A stretch of 12,837 bases of DNA from a bacterium (GTDB lineage: Bacteria > Thermosulfidibacterota > Thermosulfidibacteria > Thermosulfidibacterales > JALWSI01): positions 5,429 to 18,265 of the forward strand of contig JALWSI010000147.1 of NCBI GenBank assembly GCA_027080315.1, written 5' to 3'. Shown in pieces: positions 1-1,956 of this stretch (positions within the stretch are counted from its first letter, which is position 1; each line of letters starts with the position of its first letter). A program made the position numbers and the translations under genes. The notes below the pieces were generated by a model, which did no database searches, had not been told where the DNA came from, and saw only the letters and a program-made list of their open reading frames with translations.

Positions 1-38
1 CACAGTCCGATGCTCTAACCAACTGAGCCACACTCACC
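1..38 (-). tRNA. tRNA-His (anticodon GTG), 5' half, cut by window edge
   Basis: Read on the minus strand, the sequence begins with G at position -1, then acceptor half GTGAGTG, TG, a D arm GCTC...GAGC, anticodon stem TCGGA and loop start CTGTG. The window ends exactly after the anticodon. The anticodon GTG and the encoded extra G at -1 (position 38) are both hallmarks of tRNA-His. It lies 10 bases downstream of tRNA-Arg on the same strand, so the two are probably processed from one precursor. The T arm and the 3' acceptor strand lie outside the window. Confidence 0.9.
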
Positions 39-48
39 ACATGGTCAC

Positions 49-190: not shown

Positions 191-212
191 GAGGGAAGTT
201 GAAGTTTTAGGT

Positions 213-240
213 AGTGAGGAGGACATTAGCCCTCCTCACT
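213..240 (-). terminator. Hairpin at the end of the secreted-protein gene, probable terminator
   Basis: A perfect 10-bp inverted repeat (AGTGAGGAGG at 213-222, CCTCCTCACT at 231-240, 8-base loop) starts 12 bases beyond the stop codon of the minus-strand gene ending at 253. It lies between that gene and the tRNA promoter. No U-rich tract follows on the minus strand (next bases ACCTAAAAC). It could therefore be a weak or factor-assisted terminator, or a hairpin that protects the mRNA 3' end. Confidence 0.55.
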
Positions 241-252
241 GATATTTGTCTG

Positions 253-1686
253 TTATTCTACTTTAAAGCTTGCCATGTCGTAAGAGACGATCCAATCTGG
301 ATTGAAGAAGGTTTTGTTGGAATCCGTGAAGAGTACCACCCACAGGTATTCGCCCTTAGGAGCGTCATCGGGGATTACGTAGGTGTAGAGGGTGATAGGA
401 TCGTCTATGTCAAACATCTCAACGTGTTTGAGCAAGGGTTGAAGAGCGTCCTCTTCTCCGAGGGTTATACCTGCTTCATTGAGAATAAGGCATCTGAAGT
501 GGCCCGTTGGGTATATGAGCCCAAAGTAGAGATCCACAACGTTCTTTTGGGTACCTGCCTTGGTGGCGATCTTGAGATCCACAGCCTCTTTGCCCAAGAG
601 ATCGTGCTGGTAGAGCGTGATATCGGCTGTTGGGATAGTGCCGTTGCCCTCTTCATTGCACCGCACAGTGAAGGTGTTCTGAGCCACTGCCAGCTTGTGG
701 TTGTCCATATCCTCACAGATCACCATGAAGGTGTAGCTACCCTGAGGCAGATTATTGTAGGTTGCATTGGTGGTTGTTCCCCAAGGAGCCCACTTAGAGT
801 CGTATCCCGCAAGTTGATACTGGTACTGGTAGTTGCCAGAGCCTCCTTCAGCCTCCCACGAGAATGAGATACTGCAGTTGCAGCAGTCAATTATGCCCGC
901 CGGCTGATTTTTGAATCTTAGTTTGAATCCGTTTCCTGTGTCTTCTCCATTGCCTCCTCCGTCACCTTCCGACGGGATATTTATGGTTGCAGTGTTGCTC
1001 TCAATCTTCCTGCCTCCTTCCAGGTTAACCACTACCTTGTATAGGTTTTCCCCTGGTTCAAAGGAGTCGTAATCAGAGAAGATGGTGATGTTTGGATCGT
1101 TAATGTTGGCTATCACTTCCCATTCAGGGGATTCGTATTTGGAAGCCACTCCTTCCTTTATGCCTCCTGGTTTCTCTGTAAGGGCATGTAGCACTTGGTA
1201 TGTCTCAAAATCGTCGCCGGTGTATTTTGTCCATTGTATATCTACAGCTTTTACATCCTCTCGGTACCTTATTGAAACCTTTATTTGCTGTAGTCCTTGG
1301 GGCTCATTCTCTATGGTGACCACATGACTAACCCACCTGTCGCCGCCTGTTGTTATGACACATACCCTGTAGTAGATGGTGCCCTTGGGTGGATTTGTAT
1401 CAATGTATGAGTCTGCATCTATGTTCCCATAGTACTTAATATAGCCATCTTCTGGATAGACGGGGTTGGGGTTGGTGGTTGATCTCACCACCTTGTAGAA
1501 CCTGAAGTCTTCAGTGTTGTTGTATGGGGTCCAGTGCATCTCTACATATCCCTCTGCAGTTAGGGTGGCGGTGAAGTTTAGCCAATCTACCTCTACGGGA
1601 TCTTTGTAGCCCGTATTTGCCCACGAAAGAGCCGTTGTACCCAAAAGAACAGCTATGATTATCCCTAACACCGTGCTTCTTTTCAT
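253..1686 (-). CDS. Secreted multidomain protein with Ig/fibronectin III-like repeats, c-di-GMP-controlled
   Basis: This 477-residue protein of unknown exact function is probably exported and possibly a surface or matrix component. A classical signal peptide covers residues 1-23: MKR, a hydrophobic core, and a cleavage-like SWA/N site with no lipobox cysteine. Two related beta-sandwich segments follow at about 32-126 and 132-237; both carry a W-T-x-Y...F-x-x-Y-x-V pattern typical of fibronectin III-like folds. A Gly/Asp/Glu linker lies at 238-253. A third beta domain (254-343) contains a Cys cluster at 268, 269 and 271 plus Cys 324 and 343. A C-terminal beta-rich domain (351-477) has alternating hydrophobic strands and no catalytic motif that I recognise. 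No sortase, autotransporter or anchoring signal is visible. The start at 1686 has an ideal ribosome binding site (AGGGAGGTG). The gene stands alone behind a c-di-GMP riboswitch and its own promoter, which points to a role in the motile-to-sessile switch, such as an adhesin or matrix protein. That role is inference. Confidence 0.88.
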   Translation of the reverse strand: MKRSTVLGIIIAVLLGTTALSWANTGYKDPVEVDWLNFTATLTAEGYVEMHWTPYNNTEDFRFYKVVRSTTNPNPVYPEDGYIKYYGNIDADSYIDTNPPKGTIYYRVCVITTGGDRWVSHVVTIENEPQGLQQIKVSIRYREDVKAVDIQWTKYTGDDFETYQVLHALTEKPGGIKEGVASKYESPEWEVIANINDPNITIFSDYDSFEPGENLYKVVVNLEGGRKIESNTATINIPSEGDGGGNGEDTGNGFKLRFKNQPAGIIDCCNCSISFSWEAEGGSGNYQYQYQLAGYDSKWAPWGTTTNATYNNLPQGSYTFMVICEDMDNHKLAVAQNTFTVRCNEEGNGTIPTADITLYQHDLLGKEAVDLKIATKAGTQKNVVDLYFGLIYPTGHFRCLILNEAGITLGEEDALQPLLKHVEMFDIDDPITLYTYVIPDDAPKGEYLWVVLFTDSNKTFFNPDWIVSYDMASFKVE

Positions 1687-1814
1687 AAAACACCTCCCTT
1701 TTATCGTTCTGCCTTTGTGTATCCCTGTTTAATTGAGCTGTCTGCCTGCAATCACAGACGAATTTACCCTTTAATTTTGGTTCTGCTCTTTTATGTGTCT
1801 CTCATCTCTCACCT

Positions 1815-1901
1815 CCCCTGGCAGCCCCGCCGCCATAGCCTTAAGCCTTAGGCCGGTGGCTTTGCGTCTCGCCCTTTCAGGCGATTTGCCCTTTTCAGGG
1901 G
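1815..1901 (-). ncRNA. c-di-GMP-I riboswitch (GEMM-I class)
   Basis: The minus strand shows the hallmarks of the class in order. P1 is CCCCTG (1901-1896) paired with CAGGGG (1820-1815). The J1/2 strand is AAAAGGGCAAA. A hairpin TCGCC/GGCGA follows (1884-1880/1873-1869) with a GAAA tetraloop. Next come the conserved GACGCAAAGCC (1868-1858), GGCCTAA (1854-1848), CTATGG (1838-1833) and a final GGGGCTGCC. The base equivalent to G20 of the V. cholerae Vc2 aptamer is G (position 1890). That favours c-di-GMP over the cAMP-GMP variant, which has A there. The aptamer lies about 20 bases after the predicted transcription start and 128 bases before the secreted-protein start codon. The expression platform is unclear: a weak hairpin at 1759-1740 lacks a U-tract. 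A ribosome-binding-like GGAGG overlaps the P1 3' strand. Confidence 0.93.
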
Positions 1902-1927: not shown

Positions 1928-1956
1928 TATATATTGGGTATCAAATGAAAAGTCAA
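1928..1956 (-). promoter_or_regulatory. Sigma70-type promoter for the riboswitch and secreted-protein gene
   Basis: The minus strand reads TTGACT (1956-1951), a 17-base spacer, then TATATA (1933-1928). This is close to consensus with ideal spacing. Initiation is expected near 1921, about 20 bases before the riboswitch P1 helix, which fits a riboswitch-led transcript. Confidence 0.82.

Follow-up and report, generated by a model that had tools for sequence, protein, structure and literature searches.

The window, a stretch of DNA of 12,837 nucleotides, carries a complete c-di-GMP-I (GEMM-I) riboswitch aptamer on its minus strand, and the leader that contains it, roughly 235 nt from its inferred start, probably puts the synthesis of an exported, beta-rich protein of the surface or matrix under the control of c-di-GMP. 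This 477-aa protein is encoded by the adjacent downstream gene (positions 253-1686, minus strand), 130 nt from the aptamer.

A cmscan search matched RF01051 at positions 1817-1900 of the minus strand with 82.8 bits (gathering score 35, E 1.7e-15) and covered the full model (positions 1-87), which is the top score among the matches listed across the surveyed genomes. All conserved and ligand-contact blocks were intact; the aptamer has the GNRA tetraloop, the receptor and the ACGCAAAGCC core, and the RF01051 alignment displays a GAAA loop and GACGCAAAGCCAC. The P1 helix comprises six pairs, formed between the 5' strand CCCCUG (1896-1901, minus strand) and the 3' strand CAGGGG (1815-1820, minus strand). 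It was part of the minimum-energy fold when the leader was truncated just 3' of the aptamer, and in short transcripts it was the best fold even without ligand. The first-pass annotation had placed a c-di-GMP-I riboswitch with all GEMM-I blocks at 1815-1901, and the search bore out both the identity and the coordinates; the strand, which that annotation had left out, is minus.

The aptamer is present as a single copy, as no other RF01051 match was found in the host genome, and none was found in eight relatives from the same small phylum. RF01786, the second class of c-di-GMP riboswitches, had no match in the host genome either, a negative that is weak because the control gave no match anywhere. 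Such isolation would suit an aptamer that has lost its control of the gene, whether as a decayed or unlinked relic or as a standalone RNA, as would the lack of a recognisable expression platform where 38 of 48 surveyed aptamers have T runs within 150 nt on their 3' side. We regard this as very improbable, since a full-length match with the highest score among those listed, with ligand-contact blocks and P1 intact, points to selection, and a gene with a strong ribosome-binding site lies directly downstream on the same strand.

Three G residues at 1889-1891 (model positions 10-12 in the RF01051 alignment) precede CAAA, and we take them to contain the equivalent of Vc2 G20, which is therefore a G. 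GEMM variants of the cAMP-GMP type regulate surface genes in Geobacter, and the Hypr serine is the mark of cAMP-GMP enzymes. GGDEF domains occurred in all nine genomes of the phylum, host included. Eleven genomic stretches of the host matched GGDEF above the cut-off, two of which may be parts of one gene, and those with intact GGEEF or GGDEF motifs are predicted to synthesize c-di-GMP. Hypr enzymes are defined by a serine in their motif (PMC8835794); we compared nine readable GHxxGx-type motifs or remnants from the host, and GHxxGx, where present, ended in Asp. c-di-GMP is thus the likely ligand, because the readable diguanylate cyclases of the host lack the Hypr serine, and no cAMP-GMP cyclase was seen among them. 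Sensing of cAMP-GMP by a GEMM-Ib riboswitch, the type that governs surface genes in Geobacter (PMC8835794), is exceedingly improbable for this aptamer: the selecting position holds G rather than A, and the Hypr serine is absent from every readable GGDEF domain of the host genome. The earlier prediction of specificity for c-di-GMP over cAMP-GMP, made from that same G, is consequently upheld.

Two further features of the surveyed signaling repertoires were observed. One host GGDEF domain (L174, G000:C190:13634-14005) has an in-frame TGA just before GGEEF and represents a pseudogene or an assembly error. Separately, one c-di-GMP-I aptamer of genome G059 (L028:1501-1591) carries an A at the Vc2 G20 equivalent (AATAGCAAA) and for that reason may be a variant of the cAMP-GMP type; the same genome has seven other c-di-GMP-I matches.

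The gene downstream of the leader starts with ATG, four bases behind the Shine-Dalgarno sequence GGAGGUG (1691-1697, minus strand). Its product begins with a signal peptide, MKRSTVLGIIIAVLLGTTALSWA (residues 1-23; 1618-1686, minus strand), with a basic start, a hydrophobic core and SWA before Asn; there is no lipobox in these residues. Two repeats with an FN3-like strand pattern follow (approximately residues 31-128 and 131-240; 967-1596, minus strand), which are 27% identical to one another (E 2e-5 in this one pairwise comparison), and the first of which was 32% identical to part of an exported protein of genome G052. Pfam FN3 did not match the 477-aa protein in scans to E 1 and E 5, so that the likeness of the repeats to FN3 lies in their strand pattern. 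A Y_Y_Y domain was called at residues 281-341 (664-846, minus strand; PF07495, 48 bits against a gathering score of 26.6, E 1.2e-12), and the C-terminal domain (residues 345-477; 256-654, minus strand) belongs to no known family, having no Pfam match above the cut-off. Accordingly, the exported, Ig/fibronectin-like neighbor described in the first-pass annotation stands as to its signal peptide, its adjacent position and its FN3-like repeats, but Y_Y_Y was the only one of these domains that Pfam recognized.

Orthologs of the protein were found neither in the phylum, nor in 385 other genomes, nor in the species genome collection; elsewhere only single domains matched. A sequence search of the PDB aligned just the Y_Y_Y part, with 4a2l (E 0.002), and an AlphaFold model computed from the single sequence, without an alignment, had a mean pLDDT of 38. 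From the type of its domains, the protein would act in attachment or in the matrix; Y_Y_Y and FN3-like domains occur also in proteases and sensors.

The nuo operon lies on the plus strand, divergent from the riboswitch gene. Contamination of the contig was ruled out, as its NuoD is 73-85% identical to the NuoD of the eight relatives, and in the two relatives in which the genes upstream of nuo were read (G005 and G006) these neighbors are unrelated. Behind the riboswitch gene, the minus strand carries a tRNA-Arg, a tRNA interrupted by Ns, two genes for beta-propeller proteins, a tRNA-Ser and a gene for a YcgR-like PilZ protein. Cotranscription of the riboswitch with the genes on the far side of the tRNAs is unlikely, so that it probably controls a single gene. 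An inverted repeat behind the riboswitch gene (212-241, minus strand), with no U run on this strand, is a possible end of the transcript. The earlier description of a lone protein thus holds broadly for the transcript, but passes over the PilZ protein and the two exported proteins that are encoded farther along this strand, past the tRNA genes.

The two exported beta-propeller proteins are adjacent paralogs on the same contig (L045:1737-3491, 584 aa, and L045:3505-5265, 586 aa, both on the minus strand) with 25% identity (E 5e-42). A C-terminal domain common to them and the 477-aa protein looked plausible by eye and was not supported by BLAST. The YcgR-like protein (L045:869-1549, minus strand; PilZNR and PilZ domains), 5.7 kb from the riboswitch, is likely a further c-di-GMP receptor. 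The interrupted tRNA, near the left border (window positions 1-46; L045:5382-5465), contains a gap of ten Ns, was found by Rfam and missed by ARAGORN, and is probably a tRNA-His because its anticodon region reads GTG.

Upstream of the aptamer, a candidate sigma-70 promoter (TTGACT-N17-TATATA; 1928-1956, minus strand) would start the transcript near 1921, at the expected distance of about 20 nt from the aptamer. It has 9 of 12 consensus matches, but dinucleotide shuffling of the 100 nt did as well in 31% of cases; the match is no better than chance. The promoter is well placed, but to call it near-consensus, as had been done, is an overstatement given how many shuffles do equally well.

The minus strand has no terminator-like site anywhere within positions 1-2300, which leaves the stretch between aptamer and gene free of an intrinsic terminator. 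Folding of the leader gave no clear two-state switch, and the accessibility of the main-gene Shine-Dalgarno sequence was 0.42 in the free ensemble and 0.46 once the aptamer was imposed on the fold. Something other than an intrinsic terminator would couple binding to expression, and translation or the survival of the transcript is the more likely level of control, because the sole visible structural link is the pairing of P1 with the start of a second Shine-Dalgarno sequence. A different arrangement was seen in genome G061 (L143/L157, G061:C67:842-1062, minus strand), where two tandem c-di-GMP-I aptamers precede the gene of an exported protein and only a few bases lie between its start codon and the closer aptamer.

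That second Shine-Dalgarno sequence, a perfect GGAGGUG (1810-1816, minus strand), directly adjoins P1 and overlaps the last two G of its 3' strand. It precedes a four-codon mini-ORF, MRDT* (1791-1805, minus strand), a candidate leader peptide read directly from the sequence, whose start context is GGAGGUG-AGAG-AUG. Across both strands of the window, the mini-ORF and the main gene are the only sites of GGAGGTG-N3-7-ATG. The pattern arose in 0.1% of leader shuffles; it was picked after the sequence had been viewed, and a looser Shine-Dalgarno-ATG pattern arose in 10%, for which reasons the mini-ORF is a lead rather than a result. Among the 48 surveyed aptamers, no other comes with a very short ORF of this kind.

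One way in which the mini-ORF could serve the switch is that c-di-GMP closes P1 and partly hides the MRDT* Shine-Dalgarno sequence, so that ribosome loading sets Rho-dependent termination or RNA decay. The perfect motif at the edge of P1, rare in shuffles and shared only with the main gene, and the absence of a terminator from the aptamer-gene interval of the minus strand speak for such a route. We nevertheless judge it unlikely: the Shine-Dalgarno accessibilities are nearly equal in the free and aptamer-enforced ensembles (0.42-0.59), the motif was chosen post hoc, no orthologous leader was found for a test of conservation, and none of the other surveyed aptamers has such an ORF. That the translated mini-ORF is itself the expression platform, with P1 gating ribosome entry and occupancy of the leader deciding whether the mRNA is completed or survives, seems distinctly unlikely, and a literature search found no description of a translated mini-ORF as the platform of a c-di-GMP-I riboswitch. 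The mini-ORF and its ribosome-binding site are the sole odd feature of an otherwise well-known arrangement.

Three published systems resemble the reading that we prefer, in which the aptamer would bind c-di-GMP and adjust production of the exported protein through its leader. In Vibrio cholerae, Vc1 acts positively on gbpA, the gene of an exported adhesin, and the leader, some 225 nt long, has neither a terminator nor an anti-Shine-Dalgarno sequence (PMC4744006). In both loci a terminatorless leader with its c-di-GMP-I aptamer close to the 5' end precedes the gene of an exported, known or presumed attachment protein, although GbpA is a chitin-binding protein. In Geobacter sulfurreducens, a GEMM riboswitch stands before KN400_1971, which encodes an FNIII surface protein and for which mutations rather than a switch assay were reported (PMC13194489); this host, with its GEMM riboswitch 5' of an FN3-type surface protein, comes from a different phylum. 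In Bacillus thuringiensis, Bc2 is an ON switch for cap, the gene of the collagen adhesion protein Cap (PMC4933901), and likewise lies 5' of a surface adhesion protein, but it uses an anti-terminator whereas a terminator is absent here. The parallels with Vc1-gbpA and Bc2-cap, together with the logic of a sessile lifestyle, suggest that more c-di-GMP would somewhat more probably raise than lower expression.

Similar loci were present in the 49-locus survey. In G034, from another phylum, a c-di-GMP-I riboswitch lies 98 nt before the gene of a subtilase that is exported and contains a Y_Y_Y domain (L046:9112-11215); as at the present locus, the aptamer stands 5' of an exported Y_Y_Y protein, but that leader has a clear intrinsic terminator, the protein is a subtilisin-like protease, and it aligns with the 477-aa protein (41% identity) in the Y_Y_Y stretch alone. 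Many surveyed aptamers precede proteins whose start, judged by inspection and a simple hydrophobicity criterion, resembles a signal peptide (e.g., L013, L014, L020, L025, L144, L145, and L162). The idea of a new c-di-GMP output, proposed in the first-pass annotation, does not survive these precedents (PMC13194489, PMC4744006, PMC4933901): because FN3, adhesin, and collagen- or chitin-binding genes behind c-di-GMP-I riboswitches have already been published, the locus is a further case of a known arrangement and not a new class.

With this locus, the control of exported attachment-type proteins by c-di-GMP riboswitches would reach into a small uncultured phylum, among whose named genomes are bins from a vent and from Guaymas. 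Its leader is another terminatorless example like that of Vc1-gbpA, and the mini-ORF offers a concrete handle for testing how such terminatorless leaders work.
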